From Longicatena sp. (lineage in GTDB: Bacteria > Bacillota_I > Bacilli_A > Erysipelotrichales > Erysipelotrichaceae): a DNA stretch of 32,976 nt. The stretch is taken from NCBI GenBank assembly GCA_029258245.1, contig JARHZK010000165.1:1-32976 (forward strand), written 5' to 3'. The notes beneath the pieces are model-generated. The model was not told where the DNA came from. It did no database searches and saw only the letters and a list, made by a program, of their open reading frames with translations. This document shows positions 1 to 10,362 of this stretch, in pieces; positions within the stretch are counted from its first letter, which is position 1; the number at the start of each line of letters is the position of its first letter. The position numbers and the translations under genes were made by a program.

Positions 1-125
1 AATTCTTCTTTTGTGATGTCATGAGGATAAATTTCGCTATATACTCCTAATTCGCGAATTTCTCTTGCTAATCTTGTGTTGTTTGTGCTTCCTAAATCCA
101 AAATTACAATCATATCTTGTTTCAT
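1..125 (-). CDS. guaA: GMP synthase (glutamine-hydrolysing), N-terminal fragment
   Basis: Only the first 41 codons lie in the window; the gene runs off the left edge. The peptide begins MKQDMIVILDLGS and continues NNTRLAREIRELGVYSEIY. This is the first strand and helix of the class I glutamine amidotransferase domain of GMP synthase, whose family pattern is ILVLDFGSQ..QLIARRIRELGVY. GuaA converts XMP to GMP with ATP and glutamine in the cytoplasm. GGAG lies just upstream of the ATG and fixes the start. The gene follows xpt by 22 nt, so the two are probably co-transcribed and join purine salvage to the last step of GMP synthesis. The Asn-Asn after LGST, where most GuaA proteins have Gln-Tyr/Val, is a small deviation. 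The catalytic Cys and the ATPase half lie outside the window. Confidence 0.85.
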   Translation of the reverse strand, partial: MKQDMIVILDLGSTNNTRLAREIRELGVYSEIYPHDITKEE

Positions 126-147: not shown

Positions 148-723
148 TTATTCTTCAACAAATGTAATCGTACCCTGTTTTAATGATTTAATACGAGCTT
201 GTGAATAAATATCAAATCCTTTTTCTTCAACTAATTTACGTCCATTTTGGAATGATTTTTCAATCACAATTCCAATACCACTTACATTTGCTTTTGCCTC
301 TTCAATAATTCGAAGTGCTCCTAAACAAGCTTCTCCATTTGCCATAAAGTCATCAATAAAAATAACATGATCATCTTCATTAATATATTTTTTACTTAAA
401 ATTAAATCATAATCAATATTTTTAGTAAATGAATGAACCGTTGTATGATAGAAATTTTCATCTAAAATCGCACTACTATTTTTTTTCATAAAAACAACTG
501 GAACATCCAATAAATATCCCAAAAATACACATGGAGCAATTCCACTTGTTTCTATTGTCATAATTTTTGTAATTTTTTTATCTTTAAAATGTTCTTTGAA
601 ATCTTTTGCTAATTCCATCATCAATTTTGCATCAATTTGATGATTTAAGAATGCATCTACTTTCAACACATTATCATTTGGCACATTCCCATATTTTCTA
701 ATATAATCTTTTAATAATTCCAT
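148..723 (-). CDS. xpt: Xanthine phosphoribosyltransferase
   Basis: This 191-residue protein has the usual Xpt length. It salvages xanthine (and guanine more weakly) to XMP/GMP using PRPP in the cytoplasm. The PRPP-binding loop of type I phosphoribosyltransferases is visible as VIFIDDFMANGEA around residues 120-132. The N-terminal MELLKDYIRKYG and the segment TIETSGIAPCVFLGYLLDVPVVFMKK (shown here as two abutting motifs, TIETSGIAP and VPVVFMKK) are characteristic of Xpt rather than Hpt or Apt. It lies between the MATE-kinase fusion gene (116 nt upstream) and guaA (22 nt downstream). In Bacillus xpt is the classic guanine-riboswitch target. Here the riboswitch sits one gene further upstream, before the transporter, and none is seen in the 116-nt gap. 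AGAGGAAAATTATATT precedes the ATG and supplies the ribosome binding site. Confidence 0.93.
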   Translation of the reverse strand: MELLKDYIRKYGNVPNDNVLKVDAFLNHQIDAKLMMELAKDFKEHFKDKKITKIMTIETSGIAPCVFLGYLLDVPVVFMKKNSSAILDENFYHTTVHSFTKNIDYDLILSKKYINEDDHVIFIDDFMANGEACLGALRIIEEAKANVSGIGIVIEKSFQNGRKLVEEKGFDIYSQARIKSLKQGTITFVEE

Positions 724-839: not shown

Positions 840-2849
840 TTACCTCAAATAGTTATCAATTACATTGAAACTTTCTATATAATTTACAATACAAATTGCT
901 GCTTGTTCTATTCCTATGGATGTATCCAAACATAACTCATAATTATGTATATTTTTCCAAGGTTTCCCTGCTATATTTTCATAATAACAAGCTCTTGTTT
1001 CATCGGAATGTTGCATATGTTCTCTTGCTTCTTCATACGTATCTTGATACATATTCATGATATTTTTTATTCGAACTTCTTTTGGAGCATACATAAAAAT
1101 GGAAATGACTTGATCGTAGTCTTTTAATACATAATCCGCCGCTCTTCCTACAATAACACAAGATCCTTCATCTGCTATTTTTCTTATAATTTGTTCTTGT
1201 GCAATAATAGCCTGTTTTGAAGCATCACTACTTAAATATAAACGATGAAACAACTTACTAGAATTTTCATTTAAATCCGAAACAAATTCTTTTGCGAGTC
1301 CACTTTCTTGAGCAGCTAATGCCGTCATTTCTTTATAATAGAATGGAATTTGTAATTTTTCTGCCACAAGTCTTCCAATCTCTTTTCCACAAGAACCATG
1401 TTCTCTTGCAATTGTAAGAATAACTCCTGGTTTTGATGGTTTCATAACTATTGTATCTTGATTCTCTGTTTTCTCAACATCTAAGGATTTAAAAAAACGA
1501 ATTGTTAATACTAATACAACACATCCAGCAACAAGATCCGAAAGTGGAGCTGCAACCAAAATCCCATAAATTCCTTGTCCCGCTTGTTGAGATTCAAAAT
1601 AATAGGATAAACCAATTGTAAAAATCACAAAACAGACCATATCTCTAATAATTGAAGATATCATCGCTTGTCCTGATTTTCCAATCGATTGGAAAAATAC
1701 TGCACTCATTTTAATAATGCATGTAATACAACTTAATGATAAATACATACGAAATGTTTTTAATGCAAATTCATAATACAATTCATTTCCAGAACCAAAT
1801 ATACGAATAATGAAATCTGGTTTAAATTCAAATAATAAGGTCGCTAAAATACCAACAACCAAAGAAGAATATAAAACTAACTGATACGTTTGTTTTACAC
1901 GCTTCATTTTATTTGCTCCATAATTAAATCCTAGAATAGGCTGACTACCTAAAGCAATCCCTACAACTATATTACATACAATCGTATATACCTTTGTTTG
2001 AATACTAAAAATAGAAATTGGAATATCACTTCCAAATTTCGATAAGCTACCAAAGTGGAATAATATTACATTGCTTAATAACGTCATAACTACAACTCCA
2101 ATTTGTGTAATAAAAGTAGCTCCACCTAATCCAATTAAATTTTTCAAAATAGAAAGATCGATTTTAAAACTCTCTTTCGTTAACACAAAACTTTTCGGTT
2201 TTTTAAAATAAATAATACTCGCAATAAAAGAGAGTACCTGTCCAATAACAGTCGCAATTGCTGCACCCTTAATTCCCCAATCCAAAACAAAAATAAAGAT
2301 AGGATCCAAAATAATATTTACAATTGCTCCTAAGCTCATCGCAATCATTGCATATGTTGGACTCCCATCTGCACGAATCATACTATTCATTACATTTACT
2401 AATAAATAAAATGGGAAAAATATTGCTATAATTTTAAAATAATCCATTGCCAATACCAATGTTTGATCCGAAGCCCCAAACAGAATCATTAATGGCTCAT
2501 GAAATACAAAACACAAAATTGTTAATACAACACTAATCACAAACGATGCACTAAGTCCTGTTCCAACACATTTATGAGCGCTATCCTTGTCCTTTCTTCC
2601 TGCACAAATACTTAAAAAAGCAGCAGCTCCATCTCCAATACACCATGCAAATGCATTCGCAATACATAGAATCGGAAATGAAATTCCTGTAGCAGCATTT
2701 CCTAAATATCCCAAACTACTATTTCCAATAAAAATCTGATCCACAATATTGTAAAATGCACTAATTAGTAATCCCATAATACAAGGAATTGAGAATTTAA
2801 TTAATAATTTTGATATTTTTTCTTCACCTAATAACATTGAATGTTCCAT
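840..2849 (-). CDS. MATE family efflux transporter fused to a cytidylate kinase-like domain
   Basis: This 669-residue protein has two parts. Residues 1 to about 460 form a complete MATE exporter of about twelve membrane segments, with the N-terminal family signatures NIVDQIFIG and LDPIFIF. Residues about 475-660 form a soluble P-loop domain of the cytidylate kinase-like family: TIAREHGSCGKEIGR (479-493) is its phosphate-binding loop, and VIVGRAADYVL and a basic segment after MYAPKEVRIKNI follow. MATE proteins exchange Na+ or H+ for drugs or metabolites and are normally about 450 residues. The kinase-like family phosphorylates nucleotides, or a substrate still unknown. A guanine-class riboswitch precedes the gene and xpt and guaA follow, so I infer a role in purine or nucleotide export or sensing. 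The single reading frame and the smooth linker (about 455-475) argue against a sequencing artefact. Such fusions occur in gut Firmicutes, but I know of no settled function. Confidence 0.85.
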   Translation of the reverse strand: MEHSMLLGEEKISKLLIKFSIPCIMGLLISAFYNIVDQIFIGNSSLGYLGNAATGISFPILCIANAFAWCIGDGAAAFLSICAGRKDKDSAHKCVGTGLSASFVISVVLTILCFVFHEPLMILFGASDQTLVLAMDYFKIIAIFFPFYLLVNVMNSMIRADGSPTYAMIAMSLGAIVNIILDPIFIFVLDWGIKGAAIATVIGQVLSFIASIIYFKKPKSFVLTKESFKIDLSILKNLIGLGGATFITQIGVVVMTLLSNVILFHFGSLSKFGSDIPISIFSIQTKVYTIVCNIVVGIALGSQPILGFNYGANKMKRVKQTYQLVLYSSLVVGILATLLFEFKPDFIIRIFGSGNELYYEFALKTFRMYLSLSCITCIIKMSAVFFQSIGKSGQAMISSIIRDMVCFVIFTIGLSYYFESQQAGQGIYGILVAAPLSDLVAGCVVLVLTIRFFKSLDVEKTENQDTIVMKPSKPGVILTIAREHGSCGKEIGRLVAEKLQIPFYYKEMTALAAQESGLAKEFVSDLNENSSKLFHRLYLSSDASKQAIIAQEQIIRKIADEGSCVIVGRAADYVLKDYDQVISIFMYAPKEVRIKNIMNMYQDTYEEAREHMQHSDETRACYYENIAGKPWKNIHNYELCLDTSIGIEQAAICIVNYIESFNVIDNYLR

Positions 2850-2864
2850 GTTTTCCTCCTAACG

Positions 2865-2921
2865 AAAAAAAACCGTAACATTTTACTATAAATACAAAAC
2901 TTATAGCAAAACTATTACGGT
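2865..2921 (-). terminator. Riboswitch expression platform: intrinsic terminator overlapping the aptamer
   Basis: On the minus strand the arm at 2921-2901 pairs with the arm at 2891-2872 (about 19 bp, one bulge, G-U wobbles) around a 9-nt loop, and seven to eight U residues follow. The 5' arm starts at the ACCGTAA of aptamer loop L3. It uses the 3' strand of P3, the J3/1 junction and five bases of the 3' strand of P1. Aptamer and terminator therefore cannot form together. Ligand binding should prevent termination, giving an ON switch like pbuE and unlike the OFF switch of B. subtilis xpt. Confidence 0.75.
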
Positions 2922-2962
2922 AGTTTGTAGAAACGTTTACCCAATTATAAACTTATATAAGT
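2899..2962 (-). promoter_or_regulatory. Purine riboswitch aptamer, guanine class
   Basis: Read on the minus strand, P1 is ACTTATA (2962-2956) paired with TATAAGT (2905-2899). J1/2 is UAA. J2/3 is the invariant GTTTCTAC. P3 is AAACTA/TAGTTT closing an L3 of CCGTAA. L2 contains the GG that docks with the CC of L3. From J2/3 to P1 the spacing matches the B. subtilis xpt aptamer base for base. The base equivalent to position 74, just before the P1 3' strand, is C (2906), which specifies guanine or hypoxanthine rather than adenine. P2 is about three nucleotides shorter than in xpt (GTTTA/TAAAC plus a wobble). The aptamer starts at the expected transcription start. Confidence 0.85.
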
Positions 2963-2969
2963 GCTTTTC

Positions 2970-2998
2970 ATTTTATCATTTTTTCTATCTATTTACAA
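2970..2998 (-). promoter_or_regulatory. Promoter for the riboswitch-MATE fusion transcript
   Basis: On the minus strand the -35 is TTGTAA (2998-2993), followed by a 17-nt spacer and an extended -10, TGATAAAAT, with TAAAAT at 2975-2970. The predicted start near 2963 places the riboswitch P1 at the very 5' end of the RNA. The -35 overlaps the stop codon of the Nudix gene. Confidence 0.6.
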
Positions 2999-5285: not shown

Positions 5286-8200
5286 TTATTTATGTAATTT
5301 TTTTCGTTTTGCCGTAAATAGAGCCATTCCTGCCCCTAGCAATACACCCCATAATACTGCAGTATTTGTTTCTACTCCTGTATTTGGTGTTTGTGGTTGT
5401 TCTACTTTATTAGATGAATTTGGTTTTTCTACTTTTGTTGCTGGTTTTAATTCTGTCATTGGCACTTCTTTATGAGCTGGCTCTAAGTCTGTCCATGGTA
5501 TCTTATGACTACTTGGACCAATTGGTGTCAACTCTGGATTTTCTTTTAATCCTTTATATGCTTCTTGTAATTCTTTTCTTAATTTATTAACAGTTTCTTT
5601 ACTAGCAAATACATCCATATTCATAATATCATCAACTTTATTCACAAATATTTCATAAGAGGATGCTTCATAATCTTCTTTTTGAATACTTGATAATAAT
5701 TCTTGTGCTTCTTTTTGTATTTTTAATACTTCACTTGTATCAGTATTAATTTTTTCATATGCATTAATTTCTGCAGCACTTGCAAATCCACCTTTTCCTT
5801 GAATTTCAAATCGAATTTTATTAAATGTCTGCATTTTATCAAATTGAAATAGATAACCATTATTTGTTAAATTAATAATTTGATCTGTCATTAATTTTGT
5901 TTCTTTTCCATTTGCATCAATTCCAATTACATTTACTTTTTCCCAAGTTCCATTTGAAGCACTTCCACCAGGTCTTGCAACATATTCTAATGCATCAAAG
6001 CTTGTTTCTTTTTGAAAATCAATCGTTAATGTGTGAATATTTTTACACGTATCGTTTCCTCTATAATCTGAATGCCAGTAAGTTGATGGATTATTATCTA
6101 ATACACTAGCTGCAGCTCCATCTGTATTTGGTTTTACTTCATTAGAAGCTTGTGAACATGCACTTGCTTTCCATCCTGCTTTATCTAATTGTTTTGTTGT
6201 TTTTCCAATATTATACTGTTGTGCAAATTTAGCCGCATCGTCATAATAACTAGCACTATTTTTTACTGTTACATTTGCTACATATCCATTAAATTTTTTA
6301 TCACCTAAGATAATTTTATTTCCAGTTAAATTATCTTTTTCTCCTTTCTTATAGAAAGAACTTGATAATCTTCCATCAATATATAATTTAATTGTACCAT
6401 TTAATTCACGTACTGCATTGACTGTATGCATTTGTCCATCATTAATCTTACCTACAATATTTTTATTTGTTGTTGTTTCAACATAAGATTCTGTATTAAA
6501 TCTTCCGTGAGCTTTTTCCTTTACAGTTACAATTTCTTCTTTACTACTGATTTTATTACCTTTTATATCAAATACAATATATCCATCTTGATCAATTGAT
6601 AATTTATAATCATCTGCTTGTTGTAATAATGTTACATTAGAATCTAATGTATCCACTAACAATGAAACACTAAAATCTACATTTCCTTTGATTCCCTCAT
6701 TCGCAACCTTATGTTCTTTATTGTCCAAGTGGAATAAATCCTTTGAAACACTATTTGATTTTATTCCTAAATCAGCTTTTTTATTAATATCCACAATTTT
6801 ATTTGCAGTTCTAATCTTTTCATTTACATCAGCTGCCTTATTACCATAAATATCACGAATTTCAGTAATTTTTAAATTTGCATAATCTTTTAAACCACTA
6901 GCTTTTATTTCAAATGTACGATAATCATCTAATAATTTTGCTTCTTGTTTTGCACCATTCACTACAAATTGAGCCTTATCACTCACACGTTCATTAAAAC
7001 GAACTTCGATTTTATCATTTGATTTAATTTTTGCAGATACTAGTTGTGGTGCTGCATGATCAGTAGAACCAAATTCATAAATTTGAGATGAGAATGGTTC
7101 CAATGTAACCGTTAAATTATCTCCATAATTCACTTTTTCACTCATAGATGTAGATGCATAAGGGTATATACGAGTTTGTGTTAAATCTTTCATACCGGTA
7201 GGTACACCTACAATATTATTTAATGTTAATGTATATGTTTGTTTTTTATTTGTTGGATTAACAAAAGAAACAAATCCTTTCGTATTATCCCATGCTGAAT
7301 ATCCATAAACACCGTTTGATGGTTTCTTTCCTTCTTGAACAAACAATTTTGCATTTTTTAATACATCATGATTTTTTTCTGCAAAATCTAATGCATCAAC
7401 TGTGACTTTCCATTTTGCATCATCGAAGATACTTGGTGAATAATATAATTCCCAGAATGCTGTTCCACGCATTGCATTATCAAACAAGAATTCACGGAAT
7501 ACTTCTGTTGTAGCACTACTACTATCAGATACTCCATAAATTGGATCATGATTATAAATATTTTTTAATGGAAATTGAAGTTCATTTACTTTATATAAGT
7601 TATTATATACATCATCGCGATAATAAATTTTTCGTTGATGTCTTGCTGCTGCTTTATCTCCAGCTTCTCCTGTATCTCCTGAATCTTGCACCCAAATTGT
7701 ATTTACCCATTGTAGTAACCAAGGTGATAAATTAATATAACATGTCGCATTGATCCATAAATCTTTTCCTTCTTTTCTTCTAGCTTCGCGAACATTTTCA
7801 AATAAATCCGTCCATGCTTCCCACATATCACTTGTAAAATACATATTATGGTCTCCACCAACCATATGATCATGTTTTGGATTATTACATGGACGTGATG
7901 CAAATCCATCCCATTTCCAATAATCAATATTAAATCGAGTTTGATAATCTGTGAATCGTTTTTCAAAATTATGAATGTATTTTCTAGATCCTGTACATAC
8001 AACTTTTCCTAAGGCACTATTTGTTTGTGCATATCCTGTACCCATTGCTTCTAAATAATCAGCAAAACCACCGAAGAAATTATATCCACCTTGTGGGCCA
8101 ACCCATACTCCAAAGCTAGAATTTAACTTATCTGCTAAATGAGAAGAAGTATATAATTCATTTGGAAATTTATCATTAAATTCCCAGAATCCTGTTTGGT

Positions 8201-10304
8201 TTAAAGTTGTTCCACTTTCTCCTGGTGCATGTACATTTCCTTCATTATTGTTGTAGTTATTCCATCCATCATCAACAACATAACTATCCAATGGTTCAAT
8301 CCCATTTTCAGCCAATCCTTTTTCTGATCCTAAAAATGATTTTTCAATACTATTATCGTTGATATTCATCATATTATCATACCATGAATTATATTGTTTA
8401 CGGAATTTCGATGGAGTTGCAATATCTTCAATATATTTAAAGAAATCAGTTTGTACGACATCCATTTGTGTTCCAGTTGCTGCACCAATGACATTATTCC
8501 AAGTTCGGAATGTAGTTCCATCCTTCACATTTTGACCATCTTTTGCCATTCTAGCAATTGATTTTCCTGAATAATAACGAATTTGCATCGCATCATTTAC
8601 AATATCTGTATCTTGTGCAGGAAATTCAGATCCAAAGAATAATCCATCGGCATAAATTGGTTGCCCTAACATCAATTCGTGTTTTCCAATCCACATAGAT
8701 GAGATTTTATTTTCATCAGGAATGCTCCAAACCCCTTTTGTATTCTTATCCACTATAAAACGATCAAAATCAATATAATCAATACGTGCTGCATCTGGTT
8801 TATCCGCTGTAATTTCCAAATATGAATTCATGTAATGTTTTCCATTTTCCATAACTGTCACCATATCAATTGACCACATTACTCCTTGCTTTTGATATGG
8901 TGCAAAAGATACTCGTACATCATTGGTACCTTTTGTAATCTTCTCAATTACTAAGTCATTTGATGATATTGATTGATCTACCTTTTTCTTTTCAAACTTT
9001 TGATCTTCAAATAATTTGATTTCTGTAACGCTAAATTCATTTAAGTTGCCTAAGCAATCAGACTTAGGAACAATTTTTACATATCTTGTAGGATATACTT
9101 GATTTAAATTTCCATATGCAAAATCACCTACATTATACAATGTATCACCTTTTTTATAAGTTCCATCAGAAGTTTTTAAATCTTCATCTAATACCACTGT
9201 ATGTAAATGATGATCCTTTTCTGTAAATTCCCCTTTTCCTGCTGGGATCCAATCAGATCCATTTTCACTCACAAACAATTCATATTTCCCCATTGTACCA
9301 TTTTTGCCATACTGTTTATCTTGGTACCCTGGACGTTTATGATAAGCAAATGATCCTACATTCATTTTTGAACCTAAATCAATAACAATCGGTTCATTTA
9401 ATGTTGATGATAAAGAAAATTGAACATTTCCATCACTTAATTGTGATGCATCTGCATGTTTGAAAGTAATTTTTTTATCTTTTAAGTTAATTTCTTTTAC
9501 TGGTAAACCTGTATTTACTTTATCACTATATAAATTAAATTCTGCACCAGTAAATTCTTGTGAACCTCCTAGTACATCGCTTAATACTTCTACTTTTACA
9601 TATTGTGTTACATAGGTTTGATTAAAGTTCGCATAAACAACATCTCCTACATTAAACAACTGATCTTCTTTACGTAAGTGATAATCTTCTTTTGTGAATT
9701 CTCCATTTCCTGCTAAATTCCATTTTTTTCCATCTTCACTCACATAAAGTTTATATTTACCGATAGACCCATTTACTCCATATGCTTCCTCTTTAAATCC
9801 TGGTCTTTTTAAATAACCAAAGGAAGAAACATTCTGTTTAGAACCTAAATTAATCTCTAAAGAAAATGGATGCTCTGTTTTTGTATATTCATCGATTGAT
9901 GTATTCTTATCCCCATCAAATAATTTTGTGACATGGGACTGATCAAATTCTTTACCTGATTTATTCGTAATTTTAGCTTTCCAATCCTTACGATTCAACA
10001 CCTGTTTCGGTGCAACGACAGTTGGATTTTCTTCTTTTGATTCATCTACTAAATGAATCGAAAAGTCTTGTGATCCTTCACTAGGAGTAAAAGTTTCATT
10101 GATGCGCTTATTTTCAATTGACTTTGTACTCCACTTATTCCCTTTTTTATGAAACGTTCTTTTCATAAATTGATTTCCAATGGTAACTGTGTCACCATCT
10201 TCTGTTACAACTACGTTTCCGCCATTCTCTTTTGCATAAAGTGTTTGTGGTACAATGGTGAATAACATAGATGCAGTTAATAAAACTTTAAATAATTTAT
10301 TCAT
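5286..10304 (-). CDS. Wall-anchored multimodular clan GH-D (GH36-like) alpha-glycosidase
   Basis: This 1672-residue surface enzyme starts at MNKLFKV, which has GGAG six nt upstream and begins a signal peptide (1 to about 24, cleavage near LYA-KE). Two related discoidin/F5-8C-like modules follow (about 105-260 and 285-435; both contain KRPG, LF/LYNVGD and an Asn-rich N-Q-x-Y segment). The catalytic region is about 445-1080: VVDDGWN near 676, YWKWDGF with likely nucleophile Asp799, and WVQDSGD with likely acid/base Asp874. Then come an Ig-like segment (about 1083-1165), a LamG-like module (1190-1360), a third F5/8C module (1373-1518), a FIVAR-like helical stretch (1523-1588) and a Pro-rich double repeat. 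The end is TPNTG, a hydrophobic helix and KRKKLHK, a sortase signal with Thr replacing Leu. The likely substrates are alpha-linked Gal, GalNAc or galactosamine on host glycans; the exact one is unknown. cre-like sites suggest CcpA repression. Confidence 0.8.
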   Translation of the reverse strand: MNKLFKVLLTASMLFTIVPQTLYAKENGGNVVVTEDGDTVTIGNQFMKRTFHKKGNKWSTKSIENKRINETFTPSEGSQDFSIHLVDESKEENPTVVAPKQVLNRKDWKAKITNKSGKEFDQSHVTKLFDGDKNTSIDEYTKTEHPFSLEINLGSKQNVSSFGYLKRPGFKEEAYGVNGSIGKYKLYVSEDGKKWNLAGNGEFTKEDYHLRKEDQLFNVGDVVYANFNQTYVTQYVKVEVLSDVLGGSQEFTGAEFNLYSDKVNTGLPVKEINLKDKKITFKHADASQLSDGNVQFSLSSTLNEPIVIDLGSKMNVGSFAYHKRPGYQDKQYGKNGTMGKYELFVSENGSDWIPAGKGEFTEKDHHLHTVVLDEDLKTSDGTYKKGDTLYNVGDFAYGNLNQVYPTRYVKIVPKSDCLGNLNEFSVTEIKLFEDQKFEKKKVDQSISSNDLVIEKITKGTNDVRVSFAPYQKQGVMWSIDMVTVMENGKHYMNSYLEITADKPDAARIDYIDFDRFIVDKNTKGVWSIPDENKISSMWIGKHELMLGQPIYADGLFFGSEFPAQDTDIVNDAMQIRYYSGKSIARMAKDGQNVKDGTTFRTWNNVIGAATGTQMDVVQTDFFKYIEDIATPSKFRKQYNSWYDNMMNINDNSIEKSFLGSEKGLAENGIEPLDSYVVDDGWNNYNNNEGNVHAPGESGTTLNQTGFWEFNDKFPNELYTSSHLADKLNSSFGVWVGPQGGYNFFGGFADYLEAMGTGYAQTNSALGKVVCTGSRKYIHNFEKRFTDYQTRFNIDYWKWDGFASRPCNNPKHDHMVGGDHNMYFTSDMWEAWTDLFENVREARRKEGKDLWINATCYINLSPWLLQWVNTIWVQDSGDTGEAGDKAAARHQRKIYYRDDVYNNLYKVNELQFPLKNIYNHDPIYGVSDSSSATTEVFREFLFDNAMRGTAFWELYYSPSIFDDAKWKVTVDALDFAEKNHDVLKNAKLFVQEGKKPSNGVYGYSAWDNTKGFVSFVNPTNKKQTYTLTLNNIVGVPTGMKDLTQTRIYPYASTSMSEKVNYGDNLTVTLEPFSSQIYEFGSTDHAAPQLVSAKIKSNDKIEVRFNERVSDKAQFVVNGAKQEAKLLDDYRTFEIKASGLKDYANLKITEIRDIYGNKAADVNEKIRTANKIVDINKKADLGIKSNSVSKDLFHLDNKEHKVANEGIKGNVDFSVSLLVDTLDSNVTLLQQADDYKLSIDQDGYIVFDIKGNKISSKEEIVTVKEKAHGRFNTESYVETTTNKNIVGKINDGQMHTVNAVRELNGTIKLYIDGRLSSSFYKKGEKDNLTGNKIILGDKKFNGYVANVTVKNSASYYDDAAKFAQQYNIGKTTKQLDKAGWKASACSQASNEVKPNTDGAAASVLDNNPSTYWHSDYRGNDTCKNIHTLTIDFQKETSFDALEYVARPGGSASNGTWEKVNVIGIDANGKETKLMTDQIINLTNNGYLFQFDKMQTFNKIRFEIQGKGGFASAAEINAYEKINTDTSEVLKIQKEAQELLSSIQKEDYEASSYEIFVNKVDDIMNMDVFASKETVNKLRKELQEAYKGLKENPELTPIGPSSHKIPWTDLEPAHKEVPMTELKPATKVEKPNSSNKVEQPQTPNTGVETNTAVLWGVLLGAGMALFTAKRKKLHK

Positions 10305-10362
10305 AAAATCTCCTTTCCCATAGCAACTGTACGCATACCAATATCGAATATGCATACCACTA

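Follow-up and report, generated by a model that had tools for sequence, protein, structure and literature searches.

Which compound is moved by a MATE transporter that carries a kinase-like domain at its C-terminus and is placed behind a purine riboswitch, and does the kinase-like half take part in the transport? The question is raised by a contig of Longicatena sp. (JARHZK010000165.1), here called the window (the whole stretch that was analysed, 32,976 nucleotides). MATE exporters are commonly multidrug transporters, often polyspecific, and their natural substrate is rarely assigned. The first-pass annotation described a MATE part and a P-loop kinase domain in one frame, a purine riboswitch and flanking xpt-guaA genes. 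This description is confirmed: the frame is single and unbroken, encodes a fusion of a MATE transporter with Cytidylate_kin2 (PF13189), and has both profiles above their cut-offs, while the riboswitch (RF00167), xpt (TIGR01744) and a match to the GuaA N-terminus are all present (Table 1). The riboswitch, which lies outside the positions 840-2849 to which that annotation was assigned, is the informative element of the locus.

Table 1. Coordinates of the features at the fusion locus, given as positions in the window
Feature	Position	Strand	Basis or remark
guaA 5' end, truncated by contig edge	1..125	-	TIGR00888/NF000848, E about 3e-6 over 36 residues
xpt, xanthine phosphoribosyltransferase	148..723	-	TIGR01744, 246 bits
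MATE-Cytidylate_kin2 fusion ORF	840..2849	-	669 aa
Cytidylate_kin2 domain PF13189, residues 477-644	918..1421	-	P-loop variant REHGSCGKEIG
MATE domain, residues 10-454	1488..2822	-	TIGR00797, PF01554
Shine-Dalgarno AGGAGG	2855..2860	-	Sequence; directly past terminator U-run
Intrinsic terminator/expression platform	2865..2921	-	MFE fold and duplex test
Purine riboswitch aptamer, guanine-type	2884..2980	-	RF00167, 50.3 bits (gathering threshold 37); model R1, 94.7 bits

The fused gene, its neighbours and its relatives

The N-terminal ~455 residues contain two MatE repeats and match TIGR00797 matE (186 bits, cut-off 147.4) as well as PF01554. Foldseek comparison with MATE structures gave E-values down to 8e-17 and a TM-score (target) of 0.91 for DinF-BH (BH2163; structures 4lz6 and 5c6o), which is also the nearest solved structure by sequence, at about 30% identity. 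DinF-BH shares an intramembrane aspartate with the window MATE, but lacks the C-terminal domain of the fusion. In the window MATE this residue is Asp37, which is invariant in 49 relatives; its counterpart in the alignment is the DinF-BH aspartate replaced by Asn in 5c6n. Eleven positions, including Gly26, Ser57, Cys62 and Asn65, separate the riboswitch-linked clade from other MATE proteins and are candidate specificity residues.

Of the 80 loci most closely related to the window gene in GTDB species genomes, 76 encode both halves and, therefore, the fusion is not an artefact of assembly or reading frame; two of the 76 (L110 and L105) show an internal deletion or frame break. According to the record titles the fused loci belong to Lachnospiraceae, Oscillospiraceae, Erysipelotrichaceae, spirochaetes and one Fusobacteriaceae bin, many of the genomes behind the 80 loci being metagenome bins. 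The non-fused loci are L075, L098 and L103, which encode the MATE part only, and L106, in which an alpha/beta-hydrolase-like tail replaces the kinase. The riboswitch-linked L106 frame (L106:5926-8274, 782 aa) was assigned this C-terminal domain by eye, with no profile. Within the window's own order, just 5 of the 316 genomes surveyed carry the fusion at more than 50% identity, and so scattered a distribution suggests horizontal transfer. No close relative was found on a plasmid, the plasmid homologues all having less than 60% identity.

A gap of 116 nt separates the fusion gene from xpt downstream, which may share its transcript. The first 41 codons of guaA (3-125, minus strand) match the GuaA N-terminus, over a length too short for the cut-off. 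Among the loci read, the linkage of xpt-guaA to the fusion is confined to the window; the neighbours of fusion genes vary, and a conserved operon of xpt-guaA with the fusion is ruled out. Purine families are absent from the 25 commonest families in a Pfam scan of 96 genes adjoining fusion loci. The window also encodes, at 5286-10355 (minus strand), a secreted glycosidase-like protein of 1689 aa, whose C-terminal tail resembles a sorting signal by eye; this protein is unrelated to the finding.

The riboswitch and its expression platform

The window aptamer folds as the three-way junction of the C74 class of RF00167, with covarying stems and U22, U47, U51 and C74 in place, and has one extra nucleotide at P3/J3-1. 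The combination of U51 and C74 is the guanine-type signature (PMC9295807). Over ten aligned aptamers, eight pairs of P1, P2 and P3 have changed on both sides and 98.9% of the cells are paired, a covariation reached by none of 500 shuffles. The extra nucleotide stands directly before C74 in eight of the ten, being absent from L070 and L106. J2-3 reads GUUUCUAC and contains no insertion, and the aptamer thus lacks the insertion of 1 or 2 nt in J2-3 that, together with one in J3-1, defines guanine-II and xanthine-II riboswitches.

A subtype model, R1, was built from the ten MATE-linked aptamers, which match it by construction at 87-104 bits. They precede the window gene and the fused genes of L037, L039, L040, L041 and L070, the L038 fusion (behind another gene) and the kinase-free MATE genes of L075, L098 (Intestinibacter bartlettii) and L106. 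An independent match of 88.6 bits was found before a fused gene, L168, in a genome of the window's family, which brings the R1-type riboswitch-linked MATE loci to 11 in 10 genomes (L040 and L041 share one assembly). The ordinary purine riboswitches of the window genome score 43 bits or less. In a survey of 392 genomes, the only R1-type riboswitch before a non-MATE gene is that of L038, which precedes a guanine deaminase gene with the MATE fusion next to it; the other matches, in Bacillota, reach 63 bits or less. The riboswitch forms a subtype of its own, linked to a single MATE clade. The window genome has three further RF00167 matches, of which two precede purE-purL and purD-fhs, respectively; the third is truncated at a contig end and is very similar to the purE-purL copy. 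Near-identical purine riboswitch ends on two contigs, at G000:C45 (L001) and at the end of G000:C75 (L003), probably mark an assembly break at the pur operon. A decayed copy without P2 (L103:5847-5929) lies before the kinase-free MATE gene of L103.

In the window, the 5' arm of the terminator runs from 2921 downward and consists of the aptamer L3, the 3' strand of P3, J3-1 and the 3' strand of P1; the 3' arm ends at 2872 and is followed by the U-run. The duplex has an energy of -22.4 kcal/mol, against a shuffled mean of -8.4, and none of 500 shuffles is as strong. A strong terminator whose 5' arm is made of L3, the 3' strand of P3, J3-1 and the 3' strand of P1, followed by a U-run, is present in all 11 leaders. 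In eight of the first ten, at most one of 500 dinucleotide shuffles forms so strong a duplex; the weaker leaders are L106 (4/500), L038 (6/500) and L168 (3/500). Two ordinary riboswitches of the window genome, tested in the same way, have no such arms (29 and 253 of 500 shuffles as strong). Since the terminator arm is made of aptamer strands, aptamer and terminator are mutually exclusive and the ligand should switch the gene on: high ligand is predicted to turn the exporter on. The architecture rules out an ordinary OFF purine riboswitch. An OFF switch would be usual before a gene for import or biosynthesis, and an ON switch before an exporter is a coherent arrangement.

The adenine riboswitch of Bacillus subtilis pbuE shares the strand-exchange ON switch, the terminator built from P1, J3-1 and P3, and the exporter downstream. 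It differs in having U74 where the present aptamers have the guanine-type C74, and in the pump, which is PbuE, an MFS protein, there and a MATE protein here. In the pbuE switch the terminator forms at the cost of P1 and P3, and the presence of the ligand allows a purine efflux pump to be expressed (PMC7707468). The guanine-II riboswitches of Paenibacillus share the guanine-type pocket, the J3-1 insertion and a predicted ON switch, but have the J2-3 insertion and precede phosphoribosyltransferase genes; the main text of their description names no transporters (Hamal Dhakal et al. 2022, PMC9295807). In open-licence papers, no relevant literature was found on purine riboswitches of MATE genes or on MATE with the PF13189 kinase family. 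What is new here is that the same riboswitch subtype is common to 11 related MATE loci, all with the pbuE-like layout but with C74.

The extra J3-1 nucleotide of most members could change the ligand. J3-1 insertions mark the xanthine-II and guanine-II variants (PMC9295807), and the aptamer might likewise be a variant for a different purine (xanthine, 8-oxoguanine or a nucleoside), with the pump exporting that compound. This is somewhat unlikely: for all that eight of the ten aptamers carry the nucleotide, U51 and C74 are kept, J2-3 has no insertion, and the two members that lack the nucleotide share the same gene context and platform.

Purine context and the exported compound

The clearest purine context found is that of L038 (4542-8007), where the riboswitch is followed by the guanine deaminase gene (TIGR02967, 364 bits, slightly under the cut-off of 375) and, after a gap of 25 nt, by the MATE fusion, in one apparent operon. 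The divergent genes encode a purine nucleoside phosphorylase (TIGR01700, above cut-off) and a NupC-type transporter (377 bits, cut-off 442). Purine genes adjoin only two of the 11 riboswitch-linked loci, the window and L038, the neighbours elsewhere being unrelated to purines. The first-pass interpretation is sustained in part. Its proposal that purines, not drugs, are the physiological substrate is supported for the transporter half: the 11 ON riboswitches and the L038 cluster make purines the probable signal, and the probable class of substrate, of the MATE clade.

The window genome encodes a nucleoside phosphorylase and two genes of the purine permease family. In this 97% complete draft no guanine deaminase was detected above cut-off, and no match to MoCoBD_1 (xanthine-dehydrogenase-type) was found. 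To judge from the draft, salvage and export are therefore the only fates open to surplus guanine.

The explanation that we consider probable is that a guanine-type riboswitch with a pbuE-like ON platform controls a MATE exporter of a purine base, the kinase being an older accessory module. The domains, the riboswitch subtype, the ON architecture of the 11 leaders, the phylogeny and the genome content behind it are computed; from them we infer the identity of the ligand, the direction of export, the substrate and the role of the kinase. The purine-base reading is supported by the recurrence of one subtype and one ON layout in all 11 leaders and from the guanine deaminase context of L038. The exported base is most likely guanine, possibly hypoxanthine or xanthine. 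In the ligand-free leader the terminator would invade P1, J3-1 and P3, and transcription would halt before the MATE gene. When the ligand is bound, the three-way junction would withstand the invasion; read-through would follow, the pump would be made and the surplus base removed. In the window genome the phosphorolysis of nucleosides could release bases, for which export, alongside salvage by xpt and guaA, would be a main route of disposal.

Guanine might also be sensed merely as a proxy, with the MATE exporting another compound such as a toxic purine analogue, a drug or a purine-derived metabolite. We regard this as unlikely. It agrees with the multidrug habit of MATE exporters, and a precedent exists in Clostridioides difficile, where a variant (subtype-2) FMN riboswitch is an ON switch that drives an EmrB/QacA-type efflux pump for FMN breakdown products (PMC11477304). 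That system likewise activates an efflux pump for a metabolite-like ligand, with aptamer and transporter families that differ from those of the window. However, L038 has a guanine deaminase gene under this switch, which argues for the base itself as the cargo.

The kinase-like half and the wider significance

A domain search, which the first-pass annotation had proposed for residues 475-660, assigns residues 477-644 to PF13189 Cytidylate_kin2 (148.7 bits, cut-off 28). The predicted structure has the P-loop kinase fold and matches 3hdt with a TM-score (target) of 0.88; among solved structures, 3hdt, from Clostridium symbiosum, and 3fdi, from Eubacterium ventriosum, come closest, followed by CMP kinases. 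3hdt and 3fdi share the PF13189 fold at 26-28% identity to the window domain, but are stand-alone proteins with no assigned function. A true (d)CMP kinase is ruled out (TIGR02173, 23.4 bits against an equivalog cut-off of 102.1). The principal kinases fused to MATE proteins group in a single clade (support 95), marked by the P-loop REHGSxGKQIG and the motif YYKEM; the stand-alone proteins have REYGSGGR, with GR in place of GK, and YD-type motifs in place of YYKEM.

In a quick tree of the MATE half, with long branches outside the riboswitch clade, all ten riboswitch members then known fall in one clade of 17 rows (support 100), which nests inside a far larger fused group without riboswitch. The fusion predates the riboswitch and is much more widespread. 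The survey of fused homologues had two sides: the riboswitch recurs before the 11 related MATE loci, but some 65 other fused homologues have no R1-type riboswitch, and no purine family is among the commonest of the neighbours. Three of the 11 riboswitch-linked MATE proteins (L075, L098 and L106) lack the kinase and are nested within the clade; repeated loss of the domain is therefore the simplest account. Within the riboswitch clade the kinase shows no sign of relaxed selection, as the kinase-to-MATE divergence is 1.19 there and 1.15 elsewhere and the invariant residues are kept.

PF13189 is also found C-terminally fused to Na+/H+ exchangers (L121, L122 and L124, beside a TetR-like regulator gene), and to YitT/DUF6198 proteins (L123, L125, L126 and L129), and fused to distant MATE proteins (L119, L120 and L128). 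Stand-alone PF13189 genes overlap or abut MATE genes in L018 (101-2028), L019, L020, L027, L031 and L034, with possible translational coupling; this is a split form of the same association. By its sequence contexts, PF13189 appears as a recurrent transporter-associated nucleotide-kinase-like domain, and the fusions to unrelated transporter families suggest a general regulatory module. That the kinase half senses or phosphorylates a purine, nucleoside or nucleotide and gates its export, fusion and riboswitch forming one purine unit, is very improbable, because the nucleotide-kinase fold and the conserved invariant residues that favour it are set against kinase-free riboswitch-linked pumps, the many fused homologues without riboswitch and the presence of the domain on exchangers and YitT-type proteins. 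Under the accessory-module reading, Cytidylate_kin2 would be a generic cytosolic module of older origin, with a nucleotide-binding or kinase function, that this clade can lose; by analogy and co-occurrence, it most likely adjusts transport to the nucleotide or energy status and does not act on the cargo.

Taken as a whole, and only tentatively, a distinct guanine-sensing ON subtype of pbuE-like layout may define an unrecognised MATE subfamily for the export of guanine or purine bases, some members paired with guanine deaminase, in which an older kinase module couples the pumps to nucleotide status. Fused domains are not to be interpreted from one locus, the kinase being a separate and widely shared transporter accessory; its role is now easier to frame, since MATE proteins, Na+/H+ exchangers and proteins of the YitT type all carry it. 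For MATE exporters, whose substrates are rarely assigned, a conserved ligand-specific ON switch before one clade would offer a direct substrate assignment, to a guanine-type purine. The switch would be a guanine counterpart of the adenine/pbuE switch, and would make sense as one response to an excess of purine bases in gut anaerobes, which are apparently unable to degrade them in the cases concerned.
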